From a virus: 64,000 nt of DNA. A program made the translations under genes and the position numbers. Shown here piece after piece: positions 11,936 to 50,338 of this stretch (positions are counted from its first letter, which is position 1; each line of letters begins with the position of its first letter). The DNA is taken from IMG/VR virus record IMGVR_UViG_3300010354_000047, positions 1-64,000 of that record; one strand, written 5' to 3'. Under the pieces are notes generated by a model. That model was not told the origin of the DNA. It did no database searches and saw only the letters and a program-made list of their open reading frames with translations.

Positions 11936-13015
11936 ATGGCAACATCTGTTTTACAACGACCAAAGGCAAATACCTGGGAGTCGTTCTGTCAGTGGGTAAC
12001 TTCCACTAACAACCGGTTGTACGTCGGTTGGTTCGGTACGCTCATGATTCCGTGCCTTCTTGCGGCAACAATCTGCTTCATTGTGGCTTTTATTGCAGCG
12101 CCGCCCGTCGATATTGACGGAATACGTGAACCAGTTGCTGGTTCTCTCATGTACGGCAACAACATCATCTCTGGTGCCGTAGTACCAAGTTCAAATGCGA
12201 TTGGATTGCATTTTTATCCAATCTGGGAAGCTGCTTCCCTTGATGAGTGGCTCTACAATGGAGGCCCTTATCAATTAGTTGTTTTTCACTTCCTTATTGG
12301 CGTCTTCTGCTACATGGGTCGTGAATGGGAACTTTCATACCGTCTAGGTATGCGCCCTTGGATCATGGTTGCTTACTCGGCTCCTGTAGCCGCTGCAACT
12401 GCTGTGTTCCTGATCTATCCTTTCGGTCAAGGGTCATTTTCTGACGGAATGCCCCTCGGGATCAGTGGGACCTTCAACTATATGATTGTTTTCACTGCTG
12501 AGCACAACATTCTGATGCACCCCTTCCACATGCTGGGTGTGGCCGGTGTCTTCGGTGGTTCTTTGTTCTCTGCCATGCATGGAAGCCTCGTAACCAGTTC
12601 ACTGGTGCGTGAAACCACTGAGAATGAAAGCCAGAACTACGGTTACAAGTTCGGTCAAGAGGAAGAAACGTACAATATTGTTGCTGCTCATGGGTATTTC
12701 GGAAGACTAATCTTCCAGTACGCCAGCTTCAACAACTCCCGTTCGCTTCACTTCTTCCTTGCAGCTTGGCCTGTGGTTGGAATCTGGTTTGCTGCTCTTG
12801 GAGTTAGCTCCATGGCATTCAACCTGAATGGGTTTAATTTCAACTCCAGCATCATGGATTCGCAAGGTAGGGTGATACCTACCTGGGCAGACATCCTAAA
12901 TCGCGCTAATTTGGGAATCGAAGTTGTCCACGAAAGAAATGCCCATAATTTCCCACTGGACCTCGCTGCTACCACGTCAACCCAAGTTGCTTTAACTGCT
13001 CCTGTGGTTGGCTGA
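11936..13015 (+). CDS. psbA: Photosystem II D1 protein
   Basis: 359 aa, full length for cyanobacterial D1. It replaces the host D1 in thylakoid photosystem II so that photosynthesis continues during infection. Landmarks are present: Tyr161 in the [12 protein letters not shown] loop, the [14 protein letters not shown] segment with His190, the later [14 protein letters not shown] segment, and the carboxy-terminal processing site after NFPLDLA. Residue 130 is Glu (MGREWELS), the form associated with high-light D1 variants. No intron interrupts the gene. A leader with two hairpins precedes it and a terminator follows directly. Confidence 0.98.
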
Positions 13016-20401: not shown

Positions 20402-20425
20402 AGGGCACCCCCTTTTGGGGTGCTC
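20402..20425 (+). terminator. Hairpin terminator
   Basis: AGGGCACCCC pairs with GGGGTGCTCT around a CTTTT loop, followed by ACATTTT. It closes the preceding gene just upstream of the modification cluster promoter. Confidence 0.7.
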
Positions 20426-20442
20426 TACATTTTGGTTCAAAG

Positions 20443-20469
20443 TTTACCAGGGACTCTCGGTGCTATGCT
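20443..20469 (+). promoter_or_regulatory. Promoter of the TET/JBP cluster
   Basis: TTTACC (20443-20448), 15 bases, TATGCT (20464-20469), 36 bases before ATG 20505; an AGGAGG-like site (20493-20498) sits before the start. Confidence 0.6.
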
Positions 20470-20504
20470 CCCCCACGGTAGACTACCACCCTAGGAGGCA
20501 AAAC

Positions 20505-21914
20505 ATGAGAGAAATCCACCTAAAAGACTTAATACCCTTTGATCAAAAGAGGATGGGAAGCGTCCCGTCCGAAAGCGACTATCACGAGCTTATCAATGAA
20601 GATTGCAACGTTTATCTTCCCGATGGCTCCCTAGCAGTTGCTTTTCGAAAGAACGCTTTGAAAACTGCTCAATCCATCCATCCGGGCTCAAAGGAATACG
20701 ATTACTGGCGCTGGGCCTGCCGTTCCCTTCTCTCCGACCAACGAGGGAACGCGGCTGGCTCAGAGATAACAACCAATGTAGAAATTCGCCTAACTGAAGG
20801 ACAAAAAGAGTTTTTCTCAAAAGCTGTCAAGGGGCAGGTTTCAACCTTGACCGACGCTCTCGAAATTGTAGCGAACGACACAAGAGTTTCAAGGTCAACA
20901 TACTACGTAGGAAAAGCTGAAGCAGATGGATTGGTAGATCTAGAAGAGGTTGAAAAGTGGGACTCTTTAGTCCGCCGCAAATCAACGCCATTTGATCTCC
21001 GCCAAGAAGCCATCTCAAAGAGGAATCAGGCAAAATTAGCCTGGTTTGAAAAGTGGCTGCGAGAAGTTTGGGACAAGGCAGAAAATCGAAAAGAAGCCGC
21101 AATCACGGCTAAAAAGCGCTACGTCACCAACCAACCGCGAGGGCAAAAGGTGTACTCCGCAGTTCTCGGAGTCATCACGAGATCCGGGAGAACTCCGTTC
21201 GCTCGCCTCACATCACCAACGATGGAAAAGTACGAGGAGTTTGAATCCTTCGCCCCTTTGTACAAAGAAGTTGACTCCTTAGTTAAAAGCCTGTTTCCAC
21301 GAGAGTGGGGTATTCTCAAAGATCGATACCATGGAGTGAAGGACGAGCGTTACTCACTATTTGGAACCGTTTTCTCGTCGATCACTTGCAACTGGAACTT
21401 TCCAACCTGCTGGCACCGAGACGGACAAAACGCGAAAGATGCCGTTGCCGCTCTCGTTTGCTTTGACCGAGGGGGATATGACGGTGTTGACTTTGTGATG
21501 GCCGAGCTCGGGCTCGCGTTTCACATGCGCCACGGTGATGTCTTGATCGGAGACAACCAAGGAATCACGCACGGGCAAACCCCCTTTGTCCCGAAAACCG
21601 ACGACGCAGAGAACCTGGTTCTCGTCTTCTACTCTCGCGACGCAATCACCACACTTGACTCGCTGGAGTGTGAAACTTGCAGGCGAGAATTCATGGACTA
21701 CCTTGTTCACAATCACCCCGAACTCGGAAACGGTGAAGCGAAGTGGAACGGAAGTGTCCCAGGAGTCTGGAACTCGAAATACTGGAACGACTACAAAGCC
21801 CTTCGATCAAAGGAAGGAATTTACGACTACACCGTTTGTTCTAACACCAATCTGTCCGGAAAACTGGACACCGGCGAAGTCGAGATTCGTCAGCCCCATC
21901 TACTTAAGAAGTGA
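20505..21914 (+). CDS. TET/JBP-family Fe(II)/2-oxoglutarate DNA-base dioxygenase
   Basis: 469 aa from ATG 20505, with an AGGAGG-like site upstream. The C-terminal half matches the Tet_JBP oxygenase domain. VYSAVLGVI and FARLT strands and a helix (YKEVDSLVKSLFP) come first. Then NFPTCWHRD supplies the HxD iron ligands, GGYDGVDFVMAELGLAF and HMRHGDVLIGDN form the core, ITHGQTPF gives the distal His, and FYSRDAI a likely 2-oxoglutarate Arg. The N-terminal 200 residues are helical and unassigned. Family members hydroxylate 5-methylcytosine or thymine in DNA. A glycosyltransferase follows directly. No cytosine methyltransferase is in the window, so the base is unknown. Confidence 0.82.
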   Translation: MREIHLKDLIPFDQKRMGSVPSESDYHELINEDCNVYLPDGSLAVAFRKNALKTAQSIHPGSKEYDYWRWACRSLLSDQRGNAAGSEITTNVEIRLTEGQKEFFSKAVKGQVSTLTDALEIVANDTRVSRSTYYVGKAEADGLVDLEEVEKWDSLVRRKSTPFDLRQEAISKRNQAKLAWFEKWLREVWDKAENRKEAAITAKKRYVTNQPRGQKVYSAVLGVITRSGRTPFARLTSPTMEKYEEFESFAPLYKEVDSLVKSLFPREWGILKDRYHGVKDERYSLFGTVFSSITCNWNFPTCWHRDGQNAKDAVAALVCFDRGGYDGVDFVMAELGLAFHMRHGDVLIGDNQGITHGQTPFVPKTDDAENLVLVFYSRDAITTLDSLECETCRREFMDYLVHNHPELGNGEAKWNGSVPGVWNSKYWNDYKALRSKEGIYDYTVCSNTNLSGKLDTGEVEIRQPHLLKK

Positions 21915-31223: not shown

Positions 31224-34154
31224 ATGCGAACCAACGAACTCGGATATCCTGTCCTTTCTGAAGACCTCCATAAAAGGGTGTTCGGCCGAGAGAAAATGTC
31301 CTCTATGAGTGCTCCTCAGCTTAACAAGGCTAAGAAGCTTCTCGGAAAGTTTGGTATTCCAGTACCTGTAGATCACCCTGAGAACCTGTATGATGGCCCC
31401 CTGCCACTGCCGGATCTTAAGGGTGATTCTTTGCAAGAACACTTTGAAAAGATCGCCGAGGAGCAAATCGGCAGGTATAAGGACCTTGCAGATTCCTTTG
31501 CTCGGTGTGATCTCCCGAAGATCCCTGGAAACGGCGACTTTATCTATCAACCGGGCTGGACCAGGTACGAGTGGGTAGACGACCACTTTGAAACTGGAAA
31601 AGTTCCTTATCCTCTCGAAGAAGCATTCACATACGACACAGAAACTTTCGTGGAAGGCGGAGCTTTCCCGATTATCGGAACTGCCCTGAGTGAGAAAGCT
31701 GCATACGTGTGGCTTGCTTCTGAGCTTATTGACCCGACGATTCCTCAGGAGGATTGGGACCAAGGTGAGCTGATTCCGATCGGGGAGGGGAGGTTCGTTG
31801 CTGGTCATAACATCAGCTACGACCGAGTGAGAGCTCAAGAAGGGTATTCCCTGGAAAGAAACAAACCCGAAAACTTTTACTTCGACACCCTTTCAGCGCA
31901 CATCGGAGTTTCAGGTCTGGCCGCCGGTCAGCGATGGCTTTACGTTCTGGCAGCGAAAGACCCTGAGGAACTGTCCGAAGAGGAGAAGAGAAAACTTCGA
32001 TACGCCCCGAAGTGGCTTGATGAAGGCGCTACAAACAGCCTTCTCCAGTGTTACAATTTTCACGTGTACGAAGTCAGGAAGTACTTCGGGGACGACAAGG
32101 TTCGACCCCTTGACCAAGGAGACAAGAAAGTTCGAGATATCTTTGTAGACGCTACTCACATCTCACAAATTACGGCGGTTCTGGAAAGCGCAGTAGATTA
32201 CGCCATGAAGGACGCATTCTACACTGCGGAACTCTTTCAAGCCCTCTGGTTTAAGTATCTGGATAGCACACCTTCGATGGTCGGCCTCTGCGGTCACTAC
32301 CACTTGAACGGAAGCGTAGTTCCTCTTGTGGATAACTGGGAGGAGTGGATCAAAGAGGCAGAAAGGGTTTATCACGGTATGAACGACGAGATGACAGAAC
32401 TCTGCCGGAAACTCGTCTGGCAGACTTATGAATCCTGGAAAGAAGTCTTGGAGAGTTGTGAAGACAAAGAGGAGGGGCTGGAGAAGGCTAACCTTTGGTC
32501 TCTAAAGGACCCCTGGACTAGTCAACTTAACTGGAACGTTAAGTCTCGAAAAGGTGTCTATGCCTGGATTCCTGAATGGATGCGTCCATTTATTCGCGAT
32601 CCGAATCGTCACATCGGAGTTCGCTCCGAATTGGCGCATTTGCTCCTGAAGTTGAAGTACGAAGGGTCTCCGATTATTCTCACTTCCGATAAAGGTTGGT
32701 GCTATCATGATGAGACTGGTGAGCTGGTGAAAATCCCTCACCCGAAGGGGAATGGCGCAAATGTTGGAGGAGTTTTGTCGAAAGACTTTGTTCAAGACAT
32801 GGAAGTCGGTCGCCTCAGCAGCGACCTCCCTGAAGCCAAAAGAGCTCTTGACATCGCCAATGCAACAAGTTACTGGACCTCAGTGCGAAGCAGGGTAATG
32901 AGTCGCATTTTCTTGAAGGTCAACAACCCGCAAGGAAGCGACGCTTTCGTAACTCTCCCCGAGATTCTTTGCCACGGGACCGTCACTCGTCGAACTGTAG
33001 AAAGTCTGATGGCAACTATGTGCTCTACAAAGTCTTGGCGAGTCGGCACCGAGCTCAAGACGAGAATCCAGGCCCCGGAAGGCTGGAAGATCGTTAGCGC
33101 GGACTACGACGGTCAAGAACTTCAGATTGCTTCGATCTACAGTGACCGGTGGGAAGGCGGTTTTGTTGGCTGTTCCCCGATGGGTTACAACGTTCTCTCC
33201 GGAGCAAAGGAGAACGGTACGGACCCGCACACAAGCCTCGCTCGGGCTATTCTCCCGGAGCTGTACAAGGGTCTTGTATGGGATAAAAAGCTCGGTGTTT
33301 GCTACTCCTCTACGGAGCGACCCCTCTCTGAAGAAGGCTGGGTCTTGTCAGCTGGAACATGGCTCAACCCTGTAGATAAGGACAGGGATAATCTCTTAAA
33401 GAAGGCTCGTGACCTTAGTAAGATTGTGGGTTTCGCAACCCTTTATGGGGGAAGCGTCCGAGCATTAAGCACACCGATTCGTCGAACTTTTCCTGAAAAG
33501 AACGCAAAAGAAGTCAAAGACTTCGCCTTAAGAGTTCTTTCTACAAAGAAAGGGGTTTTGAGCAACGGAATCTATGTCGATGGTTCTGACTCCGGGGCGT
33601 TCAACCTGATGGAAGAGATCTCGATGCGAACTAAAGTTCCCCAACTCCCTTGTCTTGGAACGAAGATCTCAACGGCGATGCGTCCGGCGGCAGTCGGTAC
33701 AGACTTCAAAACCGGGAGGACGAACTGGACGATTCAGGCCTCTGGGGCTGAAATCCTTTCAATCACCCTCACAGCTGTGGCCTGGTTGGCCCAGGAGTAC
33801 AAGATCCCTTACAGATTCATCATTAGCATCCATGACGAACTACACTTTATGACCCCTGAGAAGTATGCAGAGCAGTTCTCCGTCCTTTTTCAGATTGCCC
33901 ATCTTTACACTTGGGCTCGTTTTCAGAGTGCTGTAAGGATTCCGGAGTTGCCCCTGAGCCGAGCCTTCTTCTCCTCCGTTGCGATTGATGACCGCCTTCG
34001 CAAGTCCCCCAAGGAATGCACGGTAACTCCTTCAAACCCACAAGGTAAAACCGAACCAAACGGGGTAGAACACTCCATGCAAGATCTCAGCGAGATCGGT
34101 GCAATTGACCGTCTAAAAATTCGTTACAACGCTATTCAAAACAATCTGATTTAA
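31224..34154 (+). CDS. Family A DNA polymerase, mitochondrial Pol gamma-like
   Basis: 976 aa. A proofreading exonuclease is intact: TYDTETF near residue 137 (Exo I), AGHNISYDR near 195 (Exo II) and YAMKDAFYTAE near 328 (Exo III). Polymerase motif A is VSADYDGQELQIAS near 628, motif B the RDLSKIVGFATLYGG helix near 730, and motif C ISIHDELHF near 867. The wording RTVESLM, RVGTELKTRIQAPEGW and GCSPMGYNVLSG resembles Pol gamma more than E. coli Pol I. Pol gamma-like polymerases are known from some cyanophages. It is the replicative polymerase candidate. Confidence 0.92.
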   Translation: MRTNELGYPVLSEDLHKRVFGREKMSSMSAPQLNKAKKLLGKFGIPVPVDHPENLYDGPLPLPDLKGDSLQEHFEKIAEEQIGRYKDLADSFARCDLPKIPGNGDFIYQPGWTRYEWVDDHFETGKVPYPLEEAFTYDTETFVEGGAFPIIGTALSEKAAYVWLASELIDPTIPQEDWDQGELIPIGEGRFVAGHNISYDRVRAQEGYSLERNKPENFYFDTLSAHIGVSGLAAGQRWLYVLAAKDPEELSEEEKRKLRYAPKWLDEGATNSLLQCYNFHVYEVRKYFGDDKVRPLDQGDKKVRDIFVDATHISQITAVLESAVDYAMKDAFYTAELFQALWFKYLDSTPSMVGLCGHYHLNGSVVPLVDNWEEWIKEAERVYHGMNDEMTELCRKLVWQTYESWKEVLESCEDKEEGLEKANLWSLKDPWTSQLNWNVKSRKGVYAWIPEWMRPFIRDPNRHIGVRSELAHLLLKLKYEGSPIILTSDKGWCYHDETGELVKIPHPKGNGANVGGVLSKDFVQDMEVGRLSSDLPEAKRALDIANATSYWTSVRSRVMSRIFLKVNNPQGSDAFVTLPEILCHGTVTRRTVESLMATMCSTKSWRVGTELKTRIQAPEGWKIVSADYDGQELQIASIYSDRWEGGFVGCSPMGYNVLSGAKENGTDPHTSLARAILPELYKGLVWDKKLGVCYSSTERPLSEEGWVLSAGTWLNPVDKDRDNLLKKARDLSKIVGFATLYGGSVRALSTPIRRTFPEKNAKEVKDFALRVLSTKKGVLSNGIYVDGSDSGAFNLMEEISMRTKVPQLPCLGTKISTAMRPAAVGTDFKTGRTNWTIQASGAEILSITLTAVAWLAQEYKIPYRFIISIHDELHFMTPEKYAEQFSVLFQIAHLYTWARFQSAVRIPELPLSRAFFSSVAIDDRLRKSPKECTVTPSNPQGKTEPNGVEHSMQDLSEIGAIDRLKIRYNAIQNNLI

Positions 34155-37428: not shown

Positions 37429-40400
37429 ATGGCAACTTTTTCATTCGGTACCGGAGTAGTCCCTGGAGCTCCTGGAACCTACATCAACGAAGTATCAGGC
37501 AATGTCTCCCTGGCAGGCATCGCCTCTTTTAACACAACCTACCTTCTTGTTGAAACTGAGGAAGACGTTCCAACTACGCGTTTTCCCTTCAATCGTCCTG
37601 TCCCCGTATCTTCCCTCGCAGACTATAAGGTTCTCGTTGGAGGAGTTCCTGAGTCTAGAATTCCCCTTCTGAGTTACAACTGCGTTAGCTCTTTCTTCTC
37701 GAATGCACAAGTCGGAGACCTTCGTGTTGTTCGCGTTGGCACTCCAAACCAGATTGTTGAAATCGAAATTATCCCTTCTGGTACCAAGTTCAACAACACG
37801 GGACTCCCCTCTTCTCTACAAGCTGGGGACATAGTTCATGTACAGTTGCTCCTCAACAACCTGAAACTCGTTTCAGGCGACGGAACCACTGGTTACACCG
37901 ATGATGGAGAATGGCTCGGAGTTCCTGTCACAATTCCCGTAGACTATATCTCGGGTGATGAAGTCAACAATCGTAAGATCTCCGCAGCGATTATTCAAGC
38001 GATCGCCACTGCAATCGAGACCAACCCGAGCGTCGCGAGTTCCGTTTATGTTCGAAGCTTTGGTCTTGTAAACGATCTGGACCCGACTTCAAACTCTCAG
38101 AACGGATACATCACTCTAGCCGCTACGACTTACGACGGAAACATTTCTGTCCTCCCTCAGCAACAAGAAGTCGGTGGCGCATACATCCTGATGCAAAATG
38201 CTTACGATATTGAGAATATCGTGGGTCTTTCAAACAATTTGGAAAGAGTCCCTCAGGACTACATCCAGTGCATCGATACTGCTTTTGATGGGCAAGTAAA
38301 CCAAGGGTACTTGATCGCACCAACCGCTTACGCCCAGTTTGACGCGGAAGGCAGAGAAAAGGTGGGTGCCGCTGCTGCTGCTCATTGTCAAAGCCCTGAC
38401 TTCAAATGGCTAGCTCTTGCAGATCCTGGCCCTTTCCTCGTCACAGACTTGAACAAGTACAAGGAATACACTCCTCACGAGCCTGCTGAAGATCTTGTAA
38501 CTGGTACCAAGTATTTGGTAGACAATGCCATCTACGAATGGACAGGAACTAGCGTTAATTACGACCGTCTAAAGCATCAGGGTCTTGTTCCTGGTTACGA
38601 TTCACAAGTTGCTGTTGAAACCTCTGTGGAAGCTGTAGCAGCAGACGAAAAAGTCGGACTTATTGACCTTGCCTCCTACGTTGTAAACTCGAACTCGCCA
38701 TTCGCAGAATTGGGTGTTTTCAATCTCGATTCTAATGTGACTTGGCCTGTTGACTACCAGATTCAGGAAGTTACCTTGAGTGCTAAGGGGGCTGATTTTT
38801 CTTCCTTCCCCGACACTGTATACTTTGTCGCTCCTCCGTACGACTCGGCTGTTTACGGCCCTTATCCTTCGGATGGAACCGACCAGTACGTATATATCGC
38901 TGAAACTGCTTCAGAAGCCGTTGCGATTCTGACCGAAGTTACAGCTCTTGGAGGAACTGCGAAAGCAATCGGAACCTCTACTCTTCCGACTGGGGCTCTC
39001 GATGTTGCCGCTCCTACAGGAAGTACGGCATCCGCGACTTACGTCACTCCACAATGGAATCTCCCTGTTGAGATCGAAGGTCAGTCCTCGAACCTGATTC
39101 GTAATCTCACTGGCGCTTCTGCCTACGTGAATACTCTTCACCTTCCTGGAACCCTTCAGGATCCAACGAACGAATATCGCTTGTCTTTTGTCAGCCGAAC
39201 TCTGTTTGATCCCTCCGTTGTTCTTTCCTCGAGCACAGAACCAGGATTCACAGGTGCGGCAGAATTTGCTGTAGTATCCCACAACTTGGTCGACGGGCAA
39301 AGAATCTTTTTCACTCAACCAATCAGTGGCAATGGGACAGCAATCTTTAAGGCAACTTCAAAGACCAACATTCAACCTTACTTTGTGAAGGTTATCAACA
39401 ACGATGCTTTCGTTCTCGCCACCTCAAGTTCGAATTATCTCTCCGGATCTTTCATTCCTTATCCGACTGGGATGGTTAGTATCTCCACTACACCAACTAT
39501 CCTATACAGCGCCATCAGCGGCGGAAACCTCACCTCGATCAATCTTTCTGAGTTGGGCACTGTTCCGTTCATTCGAGGAAGAAAATACGGAATGGCTACT
39601 GGAACTATTGCGAATGAAGCTGCTTCCTCAACTTCCTTCTCACCGAGTTCCGGAAACCCTGACATCTCGATCTACCTGAATTCAAGTTCTCTTGTTCTCG
39701 GTAAGGAAAGAATCTTCCCCTACGGAGAGACCACCCAGGCTAACTGGTTGCCCAAACTGGACTTGGTGAACCCAGGTTCAACAACTACGTCCGTTGAGAA
39801 CTTCCTTTGCACTCCAACCGTTAATCAGAGCTTTAGCACTGAGGCATACTTGGTTCCTGCAATCGAAGCCATCGATGGGGGTGAATACGATCCAACAGCG
39901 GGAACAGCAGGTGAGGTTATGAATCTGACCTCTTACACAACTGCGGTTGGACTTTCCGACCCAGAGGATAGCGCAAACGTTCAAGGTTATGTCACTGCAG
40001 GTCTCCTTACTGGAGTCTATTTTACCGTTGTTAACGGTTCGGGTTTTGCTCCGGATGGCACAACGGCTGTAGCAGAGGACGACAGAATTGCAGTTGTTAA
40101 CACGGGTTCAACGTTTGAATGGGTTGTTATTCCTCCCGCTGCTTCTGGTGGTGACATGAGCTCCGTTGCTCAAGTCTGCTATGGTTCCCAAGTCGAACTG
40201 ACTCTCACACAAGAGCAGACTCCCCCTGACAACCTCTGGAGATTCGAGACGATCACTTCTACCGAAATCATCGATGACGCACTTCGCGGAGTCGGATTCG
40301 GCGGAGAACCCCAAGCTAAGTTCATCGAAGCTGGTGTTGACAATGTGAACCGCCTCTACGAGGATAGCCAGCGCTACTTCAACGGATTCGGCTTCATTGC

Positions 40401-41064
40401 TTTCTACGGTCCTTACGTAGAGAATGCGTCAGGGCAGTTCATTCCTCCTTCCCCTTACGTGACTGGTGTTGCCACTCGCAGATATCGCGCAGAAGGCTTC
40501 CAGTTCCCACCGGCTGGAACGAAGTACCAACTCTCAGACGCTGTTGGAGTTCAAATCGGAATCAATTCCGCTCAGCAAAACCTGCTAAACCCGGACGGCT
40601 GCAACGCAGTGCGTTCCCTGCCCGGTTACCCAACCACGGCAGTGTTCATCTGGGGTGGTCGTACTCGGATCAACAAGGCAGTTGCAGAGCAAAGGAAGTT
40701 CCAATTTGTCAACACTCGCGTCATTCAGAACGTCGTATACGGTTCTCTGAGAAACGCTTTTGACAATCAGATCTTCTCTGTTGTCGACGGATTCGGAGTT
40801 GTCTTCAACCAGATCACTTCAATCGGTAACAGCGTTCTTAGCCAGCTTTATCTCGCGGGCGCTTTGTTCGGTCGTAGACCTTCAGATGCCTTCCAGATTA
40901 TCTGCGATGACCGAATCAACCAACCTGAGAACCTTGAGAACGGAATTGTTTACGTCAAAGTCTTTGACACTCCAGTTCCGACGCTTGAGCGTATCGAAGT
41001 TGACCTGATTCGTGTTTCGATTGGTCAAATGAACAAGGAGCTTGAGTCGCAAGGACTTAGCTGA
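37429..41064 (+). CDS. Tail sheath protein
   Basis: 1211 aa, roughly twice the size of T4 gp18. The N-terminus (GVVPGAPGTYINEVS) and the C-terminal domain are typical: TTAVFIWGGRTRINK, VNTRVIQNVVYGSLRNAFDNQIFSVVDG, GALFGRRPSDAFQIICDD and VKVFDTPVPTLERIEVDL. The extra length is in central beta-rich insertions (roughly residues 400-900), likely protruding domains. It forms the contractile outer tube. Preceded by a GGGTAAAAC motif and a good ribosome binding site. Confidence 0.92.
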   Translation: MATFSFGTGVVPGAPGTYINEVSGNVSLAGIASFNTTYLLVETEEDVPTTRFPFNRPVPVSSLADYKVLVGGVPESRIPLLSYNCVSSFFSNAQVGDLRVVRVGTPNQIVEIEIIPSGTKFNNTGLPSSLQAGDIVHVQLLLNNLKLVSGDGTTGYTDDGEWLGVPVTIPVDYISGDEVNNRKISAAIIQAIATAIETNPSVASSVYVRSFGLVNDLDPTSNSQNGYITLAATTYDGNISVLPQQQEVGGAYILMQNAYDIENIVGLSNNLERVPQDYIQCIDTAFDGQVNQGYLIAPTAYAQFDAEGREKVGAAAAAHCQSPDFKWLALADPGPFLVTDLNKYKEYTPHEPAEDLVTGTKYLVDNAIYEWTGTSVNYDRLKHQGLVPGYDSQVAVETSVEAVAADEKVGLIDLASYVVNSNSPFAELGVFNLDSNVTWPVDYQIQEVTLSAKGADFSSFPDTVYFVAPPYDSAVYGPYPSDGTDQYVYIAETASEAVAILTEVTALGGTAKAIGTSTLPTGALDVAAPTGSTASATYVTPQWNLPVEIEGQSSNLIRNLTGASAYVNTLHLPGTLQDPTNEYRLSFVSRTLFDPSVVLSSSTEPGFTGAAEFAVVSHNLVDGQRIFFTQPISGNGTAIFKATSKTNIQPYFVKVINNDAFVLATSSSNYLSGSFIPYPTGMVSISTTPTILYSAISGGNLTSINLSELGTVPFIRGRKYGMATGTIANEAASSTSFSPSSGNPDISIYLNSSSLVLGKERIFPYGETTQANWLPKLDLVNPGSTTTSVENFLCTPTVNQSFSTEAYLVPAIEAIDGGEYDPTAGTAGEVMNLTSYTTAVGLSDPEDSANVQGYVTAGLLTGVYFTVVNGSGFAPDGTTAVAEDDRIAVVNTGSTFEWVVIPPAASGGDMSSVAQVCYGSQVELTLTQEQTPPDNLWRFETITSTEIIDDALRGVGFGGEPQAKFIEAGVDNVNRLYEDSQRYFNGFGFIAFYGPYVENASGQFIPPSPYVTGVATRRYRAEGFQFPPAGTKYQLSDAVGVQIGINSAQQNLLNPDGCNAVRSLPGYPTTAVFIWGGRTRINKAVAEQRKFQFVNTRVIQNVVYGSLRNAFDNQIFSVVDGFGVVFNQITSIGNSVLSQLYLAGALFGRRPSDAFQIICDDRINQPENLENGIVYVKVFDTPVPTLERIEVDLIRVSIGQMNKELESQGLS

Positions 41065-47420: not shown

Positions 47421-47456
47421 ATGATGAATCTTCAACAAACCTACGCTGGCGTGGAT
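47421..47456 (+). CDS. Major capsid protein, exon 1
   Basis: Twelve codons (MMNLQQTYAGVD) behind an AGAAAAGGAAA ribosome binding site, stopped at once by TAA at 47457. The real protein resumes at about 48409 after a group I intron. The exon ends in T, as group I 5' exons do. GGAU at the exon end can pair with GUCC in the intron (47464-47467), giving the G-U pair expected at the splice site. The exact border is inferred. Confidence 0.65.
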
Positions 47457-48408
47457 TAAAAAGGTCCCTTTCTTCAGTAATGAAGATCGAAAACTGGGTG
47501 AATTGCTGAAACGCTGAGATGCCAATCAGCAGCCAAGTTTACTTCGGGTCCCTACCGTTAAGATAGGGTGAAGTAAAAAGGTTCAACGACTAGGAGATGA
47601 CTGACCCAAGAATAAATCTCCCACGAGTGCCCAGCTCCATGGATTATTTTCCTTCATTGAAGACCTTCTCCCGAACAGAAGATCGAAACCCGACTTTTAC
47701 TCGGAAAGACACCACATTATACCGAAATGTGTTGGGGGCTCCGATGAAGAAGAAAACCTCATTTACCTCACACCTTCAGAGCACCTGATCGCTCACCAGC
47801 TTCTGGTTAAAACCTTCCCGGAACATTCAAAGCTCAAATCCGCACTGTGGATTATGAGTCACAAGAACGGAAAAAGTTTAACCCCAAAGGAATACGAAGA
47901 ACTTAGGCTTTTATGCTCAGAAACCCTTTCCACTCGGAGAAAGGGGGGTACTTCTCAAGAGACGAAAGATAAGATTAGTAAGATTCACAAAGGTAAGACG
48001 ATTTCAAAAGAGCACAAATTGGCAAACAGCTCGGCTGTCAGAAATTATCTTTTGAATACACCGGAAGGGAGAAGCCAAGCCCAAAGAGGAGGAAAGACTA
48101 CTGGAAAACTCCCTTGGTGGAATAAAGACGGAATTACTAGACGATCTTACGAGTCACCAGGGGAAGGTCGGGTGAGGGGCAGAGGCAAGGGAATTAGCCC
48201 TGCAATGGCCGAAGCGGGATCAAAGAACAAAGGAAAAGTTTACTGGTCCCGAGTTAATTCTTCAGGTGAAATAGAGAGGAGGCGAAGTTTCTCCCCTCCT
48301 TCCGAAGAGTGGACTAGAGGTTATAATCCGGGATGATGATATAGTCTGAACTTTTCAGAATCCAATGAAAAGAGTTAAGGGATAAAAAGCCCTTAAGATA
48401 ACAATTTG
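47457..48408 (+). other. Group I intron 1 in the major capsid gene
   Basis: Core elements in order: P-like AATTGCTGAAACG (about 47501), Q AATCAGCAGCCAAG (47524), R GTTCAACGACTAGG (47581) and S GATATAGTC (48338). The 3' end is ...AACAATTTG, ending in the required G. An HNH endonuclease reading frame lies between R and S. It closely resembles intron 2 in core and 3' end. Confidence 0.82.
47597..48336 (+). pseudogene. HNH homing endonuclease of intron 1, frameshifted
   Basis: The ATG at 47597 aligns with that of the intron 2 endonuclease but is one base out of frame after 26 bases, and its own frame stops at 47788. The correct frame, open from 47605, reads ERHHIIPKCVGGSDEEENL, then LTPSEHLIAHQLLVKTFPEH, a complete HNH core, and continues through NUMOD3-like DKISKIHKGKTISKEHK to the stop at 48336. 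Without a repaired start only an internal ATG (47854) is available, after the catalytic core. Confidence 0.72.
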
Positions 48409-49312
48409 CCTATCCTCACAACGCTAGCACAAGGTTTCATGCTCCCGTCTACAAACATCGCAAACTTTATTGCGCCTGTTGTAGACACTCCTACCCGTGC
48501 AGGACGTATTCTGCGCTTTGGTAAGGAACAATTCGCAATCAACGACTTCCGTCGTGCCTATGGAACCAACATTCCCTACGTTCAGAGCCGTTACGACTCT
48601 GAGCCCTACGCCCTCGAACAAGAGGTCGTGGCTTGGGAACTTCCAGAAGAAGTGATCGAGAACGCTGGGGAAGGTCCTGCACAAGTCGACCTCCGGGCGA
48701 TTGAAACAAGGAACGCAATGTCGAGAATCATGAACTCTTATGAGTATACTGTTTCTCAGGCCGTTAGCGTTACTGGTTCCTACAACCCCTATGAGCCCTG
48801 GAACACCGTTCCCGGTTCTCAAACTGGCCTCGGCTTCGAAACCTGGACAGATTTCAACACCGCCTATGCAGCCGCTTCCGGTCCTGCTGCGTGGTCCGCT
48901 CTTTCTTCGAACCCCATCGAAGACGTGAAGACCCTTAAGCGTTCCGTTGCTAACCAGATCGGTATTCGTCCGAACTCTGCCGTTCTTGGAACTGCAGTTT
49001 TTGACCTGTTGCTGACCAACCAGGCGATCCTTGAGCGTATCAAGTACACCAGCGCTGACAGCATCGACACTGACGTCATTGCTCGCTACTTCGGTCTCGA
49101 GCGTGGTGTTCGCGTTGCAGAAGGTCGTTACTTGGCACAAGACGGAACCCTCCAACCGGTATTCCCGGCTAACGGAATCCTCCTGTTCTACAGCCCGAGT
49201 GGTCCTTCTGATTCCATCATGCCTGCTGGTGGTGCTAACGCCGCAACTCCGGCTTTTGCCTACACGTATGTTAATAACATCGTTCCATTCAAGCGAGTTA
49301 GATGCGTGGTTT
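48409..49312 (+). CDS. Major capsid protein, exon 2 (main part)
   Basis: About 300 residues: PILTTLAQGFMLPSTNIANFIAPVVDTP..., then FRRAYGTNIPYVQSRY, ELPEEVIENAGEGP and IGIRPNSAVLGTAVFDLLL. This is the HK97-fold capsid type with the extended N-terminal arm seen in Mu-like and related phages. The frame would stop at 49312-49314 in intron 2. The 3' border is uncertain (49303 or 49312 keep the frame with exon 3). Spliced length is about 363-366 aa. Confidence 0.82.
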
Positions 49313-50177
49313 GACGGTAACGTCAAATTACCTGCCTGATCAGCAGGTCAATGGGGTGAATTGCTGGGACACCTGACGGTTTCAGAAATGAAATACAAGG
49401 TAATCAGCAGCCAAGTTTACTTCGTCGAATCAGGACTAAACTGATTGAAGTAAAAAGGTTCAACGACTAGACGATGAGTTTCGACAACAATAACTCGTCC
49501 ACGAGTGCCCCACTCCTTAAATGCTTTTACCGAAACAAGTACGAAAGATGCTACTGGGAACTAATCTCAGTAACACCTTCCGAGAAACCAAGAACCTTTA
49601 AAACTGAAGAGCACCACATAATCCCTAAGTGCTTAGGGGGACATCCTCGGGAAAAGAGCAACCTTAGCTACCCAACTCCGAGACAACATTTCGTTTTACA
49701 TCGATTGTTGAATAAGATGTTTCCAGATCACGAAGGACTTTTCTACGCTATATTCCGAATGAGCTGTTCGGGAAATAGCAGAGTTTACTCCCACTTAAAG
49801 TTGAACTATGTTCGATCAAGTGAGCATAACCAAAGAATCTCTGAATCTCTACGAGGACAGAGGTTGACGGAAACTCGGAAGAAAAAAAAATCCCGTGCTA
49901 GACTCGCCTCCCCAAATACCTTAAGCGGTGAAGATCACCCCAACTCTAACAAAGACTTAGAAAGTCGAAAAGAAGAGATAAGAAGTGTCTGGTTGGAAAA
50001 TGGCAAACCGGGAGACGTAAAACTAGGCCAATTTCTTGGCTTAGGAACAGGAAAGAAAGGTTACAGGTGTAAAACTCTTCAAAGGTTCATAAAAGAATTT
50101 AAGGATGAAGATATAGTCTGAACTCCGTAAAAATACGGAGAAGTGAAGGATAAAGAGCCTTCGCGTTAACAAATTTG
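49313..50177 (+). other. Group I intron 2 in the major capsid gene
   Basis: Core elements: P AATTGCTGGGAC (about 49359), Q AATCAGCAGCCAAG (49402), R GTTCAACGACTAG (49458), S AGATATAGTC (50109). The 5' part folds as TGACG-GTAA-CGTCA. The 3' end ...AACAAATTTG is nearly the same as in intron 1. An intact HNH endonuclease gene fills the R-S loop. Confidence 0.82.
49474..50121 (+). CDS. HNH homing endonuclease of intron 2
   Basis: 215 aa, starting four bases after the R element and ending within S. The HNH core is EEHHIIPKCLGGHPREKSNL followed by TPRQHFVLHRLLNKMFPDH. A NUMOD-like middle (SEHNQRISESLRGQRLT) and a DNA-binding C-terminus with a helix-turn-helix-like end (GDVKLGQFLGLGTGKKG) follow. 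It would cut intron-less capsid alleles and spread the intron. Clearly related to the broken copy in intron 1. Confidence 0.85.
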   Translation: MSFDNNNSSTSAPLLKCFYRNKYERCYWELISVTPSEKPRTFKTEEHHIIPKCLGGHPREKSNLSYPTPRQHFVLHRLLNKMFPDHEGLFYAIFRMSCSGNSRVYSHLKLNYVRSSEHNQRISESLRGQRLTETRKKKKSRARLASPNTLSGEDHPNSNKDLESRKEEIRSVWLENGKPGDVKLGQFLGLGTGKKGYRCKTLQRFIKEFKDEDIV

Positions 50178-50338
50178 ATCAACTCACCGGAACACCCGCT
50201 GTCCGCCCTGAGTACTACATCCGTGAGCGTCGCGTTGTCCGCGCAGAAATCACTATCGAGCGTGTGATCAACCTGGTCGGCCTTGGTGCAACTGGTCTTA
50301 TCGGTTCTGGCGCTATGATCACCGACATCCTGTCCTGA
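50178..50338 (+). CDS. Major capsid protein, exon 3 (C-terminus)
   Basis: 53 codons plus a split codon: QLTGTPAVRPEYYIRERRVV, then AEITIERVINLVGLGATG to the stop at 50336. The content completes the C-terminal strand of the capsid protein that exon 2 lacks. The frame has no good start of its own. Confidence 0.72.

Follow-up and report, generated by a model that had tools for sequence, protein, structure and literature searches.

Two group I introns with HNH endonuclease genes in the major capsid gene of a probable tailed cyanophage

Introduction

How does the major capsid gene of a phage come to hold two group I introns of one kind: did an intron copy itself to a second site within the genome, or was a conserved gene invaded more than once? 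The question is raised by positions 47421–50338 of the IMG/VR virus record IMGVR_UViG_3300010354_000047, a 136,373-base record whose first 64,000 bases form the window analysed here. A reading made from the letters alone (the sequence-only reading) had proposed that this capsid gene is split by two introns of common descent, each with an HNH endonuclease gene, and had named both routes. The gene is assigned to phrog_1005 / PF03864 by profile matches. From comparison with its relatives we consider it very probable that the two group I introns of the window are mobile elements with HNH genes, and that they occupy two out of a set of at least 16 capsid sites used in a cyanophage lineage related to Synechococcus phage S-CBWM1, with homing and recombination as the processes behind them.

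Results and Discussion

Capsid gene and intron borders

The presence of two group I introns in the major capsid gene of the window was confirmed. An alignment that permits introns, made against the intronless relative L006, set the borders and gives the following parts.

47421..47456, + strand: capsid exon 1, 12 codons, MMNLQQTYAGVD (spliced alignment)
47457..48408, + strand: group I intron 1, site 12.0 (after codon 12), 952 nucleotides (nt) (RF00028; T..G border)
48409..49267, + strand: capsid exon 2 (spliced alignment to intronless L006)
49268..50177, + strand: group I intron 2, site 297.1, 910 nt (RF00028; L006 border and T..G rule)
50178..50338, + strand: capsid exon 3, including the stop codon (relatives, spliced alignment)

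Joined together, the three exons form a 351-codon capsid gene, which is uninterrupted in all 80 relatives kept (the best 80 of 232 confirmed); this list puts intronless genes at the top and says nothing about intron frequency. The peptide MMNL[QS]QTYAGVDPILTTLAQ is continuous in 79 of these 80 intronless relatives, and the remaining row begins at residue 4. The first exon is as short as the sequence-only reading had it, and the intronless alleles that it had proposed to seek as a means of fixing the borders were found, placing the introns at 47457–48408 and 49268–50177.

Both window introns follow the rule that the upstream exon ends in U and the intron ends in G. The border of intron 1 is the single best solution on protein alone, with no splice rule imposed, and obeys U..G; for intron 2 there are three tied protein-only solutions, one of which obeys the rule. 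A border of intron 2 at 49289, obtained by fitting P1 by eye, was rejected, as it gives a 358-amino acid (aa) capsid with seven extra residues compared to the intronless relatives.

Ribozyme elements of the two introns

The covariance-model search that had been suggested as a check matched both introns to the Rfam family RF00028. Intron 2 scores 61.4 bits, above the cut-off of 50, with a match extending to 50140, and intron 1 scores 45.3 bits (E 2e-9), below that cut-off. The following elements were recognised.

47464..47467, + strand: intron 1 guide sequence (P1), 4 base pairs (bp) GGAU/GUCC with the end of exon 1, final U.G; weak evidence alone
47492..47594, + strand: intron 1 core, P to R (core alignment)
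48338..48349, + strand: intron 1 S element, GATATAGTCTGA (read from sequence, pattern search)
49304..49308, + strand: intron 2 guide sequence (P1), CACGU/GCGUG, final U.G
49350..49471, + strand: intron 2 core, P to R (core alignment)
50110..50121, + strand: S element of intron 2; overlaps the stop codon of HNH2 (read from sequence)

The P, Q, R and S blocks are common to both introns, and their 3′ ends, which read AACAATTTG and AACAAATTTG, are as alike as had been noticed. The description of the Q and R elements as nearly identical applies to the conserved blocks only; over the P-to-R cores the identity is 60%. Across 30 cores P6 covaries, each of the 8 pairs of this stem showing changes in both partners; P4 is nearly invariant and therefore uninformative on covariation. 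Further group I introns were not found in the 136,373-base record.

Sub-threshold matches to another Rfam family, RF02421 (Bp1_684, cut-off 44), were seen at window positions 47531–47635 (21.0 bits) and 49409–49511 (25.2 bits), covering the Q-to-P3′ part of both introns. Annotated as a Burkholderia small RNA, this family could represent part of a group I intron.

Intron-encoded endonucleases

Each intron contains a predicted endonuclease gene.

47597..48336, + strand: HNH1, predicted homing endonuclease of intron 1, frame broken (phrog_655, E 3e-41)
49474..50121, + strand: HNH2, predicted homing endonuclease of intron 2, intact, 215 aa (phrog_655, E 1e-30)

The phrog_655 matches agree with the proposal of one HNH family with the motif HHIIPKCxGG in both introns. 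The assumption that HNH1 is an intact open reading frame (ORF) had to be given up. Its frame is open from 47605 to 48336 with no ATG, GTG or TTG ahead of the HNH motif, and the homologous start codon, ATG at 47597, sits in a different frame from the remainder (47605 onward). The intact endonuclease at the same site in a relative (L105) matches HNH1 in two pieces, residues 20–245 in one frame (44% identity) and residues 1–24 in the other. This points to a fresh break or a sequencing slip near the start; a programmed frame shift seems less likely. HNH2 is 61–76% identical to the same-site endonucleases of four other phages. Extra copies of either gene were not found in the 136,373-base record.

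Intron sites and intron load in relatives

A core pattern scan together with spliced alignments located related introns at 16 capsid sites in relatives (codon.phase): 3.0, 12.0, 13.2, 25.0, 31.0, 50.0, 53.1, 64.0, 91.0, 93.2, 101.0, 106.0, 118.2, 295.1, 297.1 and 308.0. L085/L195, for example, have introns at 3.0 and 297.1. The heaviest loads are 13 introns in each of L185 (part of a 279,339-base record), L186 and L191, followed by 11 in L190 and nine in L187. Micro-exons of 5 nt (12.0/13.2), 6 nt (295.1/297.1), 8 nt (91.0/93.2), 9 nt (exon 1) and 10 nt (50.0/53.1) occur. Independently of the spliced alignment, Rfam recovers 13 introns in L185, 13 in L191 and 11 in L190 (38 matches, with one intron in two pieces), and RF00028 matches are present in 18 of 18 relatives' records, all of which had been selected for carrying the core pattern. 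Left out of our counts were L145/L259, where the alignment path is implausible at 3.0 and 14.1, and the truncated 297.1 introns of L178 and L180. Group I status is least sure for the 215-nt introns of site 25.0.

In the 279-kb record, 14 of the 17 Rfam matches lie in the capsid region and three in or beside a gene that matches a DNA primase family (phrog_25243). This gene of the 279-kb record (L192, G001:18500-23500) matches the family in two pieces, and the three RF00028 hits fall between these or close by. The core pattern was also observed in three Bacillales records, L307, L308 and L309 (Paenibacillus, Cytobacillus and Lysinibacillus), and the scan of bacterial genomes found nothing beyond these three.

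Pattern scans favour matching cores, and intron frequencies were therefore taken only from searches with the intron-free stretch. The two queries, codons 121–296 of the window and of L185, favour neither intron state and gave 71 distinct places including the window, with 51 complete genes after leaving out L259. Introns are present in 24 of these 51 capsid genes (window included) and 27 are intronless. The proportion with introns falls with identity to the window over codons 121–296, from 15/19 (≥83%) through 8/17 (80–83%) to 0/14 (below 80%). Intron content changes sharply even between close alleles: capsid genes with 95–99.9% identical coding sequence have three, four, five or six introns, in different sets.

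The U..G rule is satisfied among the best protein-only junctions of 167 of 172 introns, where 27.4 would be expected by chance. Residue conservation at the 16 sites is 0.997 vs 0.970, a value as high being reached in 0 of 20,000 random draws, and the longest intron-free stretch is 530 nt, between 118.2 and 295.1 (5 of 20,000 random draws). This placement fits endonucleases that require a conserved target, and it supports the suggestion of the sequence-only reading that a highly conserved target was invaded.

Homing endonucleases pass through a cycle of gain, decay and loss. At several sites, introns occur in forms with and without an ORF (899 and 264 nt at 3.0, 938 and 263 nt at 31.0, 967 and 280 nt at 106.0, 914 and 329 nt at 297.1). 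These ORF-minus forms and the broken HNH1 of the window are what such a cycle predicts.

Descent of introns and endonucleases

An endonuclease tree of 38 rows, in which HNH1 of the window was entered as its open fragment, follows the insertion sites closely: the 12 site groups need 12 changes, compared to a minimum of 11 and a shuffled mean of 27. HNH1 groups with the site-12.0 enzyme of L105 (99/95) and HNH2 with four other 297.1 enzymes (100/99), and the two fall in different halves of the tree. Some clades unite adjacent sites (12.0, 25.0 and 3.0; 91.0, 101.0 and 106.0), and related enzymes tend to lie at neighbouring sites (Mantel rank r 0.28, equalled or exceeded in 315 of 9,999 permutations).

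The ribozyme cores gave a different picture. Their tree was built without the ORF stretch, an earlier version that mixed ORF and non-ORF sequence having split on that mixture, and this second core tree leaves out the 215-nt site-25.0 introns and 295.1 of L191. It requires 42 changes with respect to site (minimum 14, shuffled mean 67) and 67 with respect to genome label (shuffled mean 68.4), which means partial grouping by site and no clustering by genome. In the 13-intron genes the P5, P6, P8 and P9 modules recur in varied combinations across sites, and all four combinations of type pairs were seen. The cores follow the sites only partly because these modules, to judge from their distribution, recombine across sites. 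Endonucleases thus keep to one site each, whereas the modules of the ribozymes seem to be swapped between sites within the gene. Such exchange was seen in the 13-intron relatives and not in the window pair.

Same-site introns are related across phages and intronless alleles exist, as is characteristic of a homing lineage. The P, Q, R and S blocks that both have in common, together with the single HNH family, also uphold the common descent of the two window introns. As to the route, intragenomic spread fits less well than successive invasion or separate inheritance at each site, because the window introns are closest to same-site introns elsewhere and their enzymes fall in separate site clades.

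Origin and maintenance of the introns

We propose that the capsid pre-mRNA would lose both introns by the two-step guanosine reaction. An internal guide would pair with the end of the upstream exon and form a U.G pair where the RNA is cut, while the 3′ site would be marked by the G that closes the intron. Each site-specific HNH lineage would cut or nick the empty conserved site in co-infecting phages, and repair would copy the intron in. The endonuclease might then decay, as HNH1 of the window may have done, or be deleted, leaving an intron that survives as a ribozyme. A surviving intron could recombine with its neighbours at the P, Q, R and S blocks that they have in common. Such recombination would give rise to mosaic cores and, for some lineages, to a single gene holding 13 introns.

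Several observations weigh against this account. Intron 1 stays below the Rfam cut-off, and with its endonuclease broken it may now be immobile. A Pfam HNH match was obtained for HNH1 only (22.0 bits against 21.4): HNH2 has no Pfam match at E 0.1 and no close solved structure in a structure comparison, and it is the phrog_655 match by itself that suggests cutting by HNH2. The five exceptions to the U..G rule are one intron, site 31.0, in L185 (5681-5957), L186, L187, L125 and L095; its protein-consistent 3′ end is A, not G, and a rule-bound alignment shifted it to 28.2. P1 is mostly 4 bp, and among control T sites a median of 24% form an equally good helix, so this pairing is too weak to test splice sites one by one. 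Core grouping by site is only partial, and an approximately unbiased (AU) test on the short mosaic cores does not reject the window pair as sisters (p 0.81). Splicing of both introns, finally, is predicted from DNA rather than read from RNA.

Recent intragenomic spread, in which one window intron was copied from the other site within the phage, would agree with the failure of the AU test to reject a sister pair, a test that presupposes a tree which mosaic cores do not have, as well as with the shared blocks, the single HNH family and the sharing of modules between sites in relatives. We nevertheless regard it as very unlikely for this pair, whose cores are 60% identical to each other vs 82.5% and 82.8% to same-site introns elsewhere, whose enzymes sit in different tree halves with those of sites 12.0 and 297.1, and whose lineage shows no clustering of genome labels on the core tree (67 vs 68.4). 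If, on the other hand, the insertions were not spliced at all, the locus could be a decayed or mis-assembled (chimeric) capsid gene, for which the HNH1 frame break and the origin of the sequence in an uncultured-virus record with no close isolate might be taken as signs. The exons, however, are open and conserved and rejoin to the 351-codon capsid, and same-site insertions recur in independent records, which makes this extremely improbable.

The introns might also be kept, not as selfish elements, but as splicing-based regulators of capsid production, responding for example to temperature or infection stage. They stand in a structural gene needed in high copy, are common in the lineage (24/51 complete genes), and persist in ORF-minus form at many sites. 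Near-identical genes nevertheless differ in their intron sets and 27/51 have none, unlike what a needed switch would show, and we consider regulation very unlikely. Homing into conserved capsid sites followed by recombination remains the explanation we favour.

A possible spliced transcript

One intronless relative, L199, has 97.1% coding-DNA identity to the 13-intron gene of L251 and is nested in that clade, and in its flanks it matches these phages over long stretches at 94.8–99.4% identity. It departs from the genome sequence just after the T-run of the next gene's terminator and continues into a stray internal capsid fragment (L199:5742-5837), a chimeric end such as assembled RNA would possibly give. 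L199 looks like a spliced transcript, which we take as a lead. A second, partly spliced candidate, L224, keeps the introns at 3.0, 12.0 and 25.0 and is without those at 31.0, 106.0 and 297.1, whereas L261, whose gene is 99.6% identical, has all six; a search of the collection for the spliced 106.0 junction of L224 turned up no other contig. No paper on an RNA origin of L199 (dataset 3300012770) or L224 (dataset 3300012708) was found by dataset number. L018, from another dataset in the same number range, reads through its terminator and gives no support for an RNA origin.

The virus and its neighbouring genes

The source virus is most likely a tailed cyanophage because the window contains psbA, a Mu-like portal gene, a tail sheath match, a head protease gene (profile match) and the phrog_1005 / PF03864 capsid gene. 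The closest isolate by capsid is Synechococcus phage S-CBWM1 (MG450654), with 67% identity over the full length; its major capsid gene is intronless, unlike that of the window. Over 24.9 kb of the window there is no megablast match among 50,697 phage records.

The psbA gene for photosystem II D1 (11936–13015, phrog_182) is intact and uninterrupted. An ORF with a TTG start at 20415–21914 has a TET/JBP 2-oxoglutarate oxygenase domain (PF12851, E 4.5e-16), so the phage DNA may contain a modified base. The DNA polymerase encoded at 31224–34154 combines a family-A polymerase domain with a mitochondrial-type exonuclease domain (PF18136, E 6e-58). At 37429–41064 lies the gene of a 1211-aa protein in which tail sheath families match the last ~220 residues only.

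Comparison with known systems

Phage group I introns usually occur one or a few per gene, and I-HmuI-type HNH enzymes are encoded in group I introns of SPO1-like phages. The window introns resemble the latter in having an HNH gene within a phage group I intron, a relation by family names only, with no match to solved structures.

Homing by a nicking enzyme appears as a title cited in PMC3706429. Over 100 phage introns are counted in PMC11878797, mostly in genes of nucleotide and DNA metabolism, and a small exon between two introns is reported there. In mycobacteriophage LittleE, splicing of an intron in the major capsid gene was shown by reverse transcription PCR and protein sequencing (PMC3706429). 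This intron has U..G ends, is probably group I and holds an endonuclease gene, as do the introns described here; it is a single intron with an opposite-strand LAGLIDADG-like endonuclease, whereas here one capsid gene holds 2 to 13 introns, with sense-strand HNH genes. The lactococcal phage Tuc2009, cited in PMC3706429, also has a group I intron in a capsid subunit gene, in another host group. In Twort, orf142 has three group I introns according to a title cited in PMC11878797 and was later shown to be a tail tube gene (PMC11878797). Like our capsid gene, it is a structural gene of a phage with several group I introns; it differs in having three, compared to up to 13 with exons of 5–10 nt. Passages of PMC12350094, PMC7431792 and PMC11835236 contain nothing on capsid-gene introns. 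Our literature search found no report of a phage gene in which the number of group I introns exceeds three; most subscription journals lie outside its coverage, and the result is no proof of absence.

We lean, by a narrow balance, towards regarding this capsid gene as an intron hot gene without a described phage parallel, with at least 16 sites, most with an HNH lineage of their own, ribozyme parts traded between them, up to 13 introns spliced and L199 as a natural spliced transcript. If so, endonuclease and ribozyme would evolve apart, and exons as short as 5 nt, hardly longer than a single P1 helix, would have to be spliced to make the shell protein. Up to 13 related introns, together with intronless alleles and intermediates, form a natural series on the spread of introns to new sites, and this series bears on the joint travel of ribozyme and endonuclease, on the minimal exon between two ribozymes and on the cost of intron load to the phage. 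Ordinary gene finding fragments such capsid genes, which may bias capsid-based surveys against phages of this sort. Capsid genes of phages are already known to carry group I introns, one per gene, and the density seen here was not found in the literature searched; what makes the present system a marked variant of that kind is its intron load, how many sites are used, its micro-exons and the separate histories of endonucleases and ribozymes.

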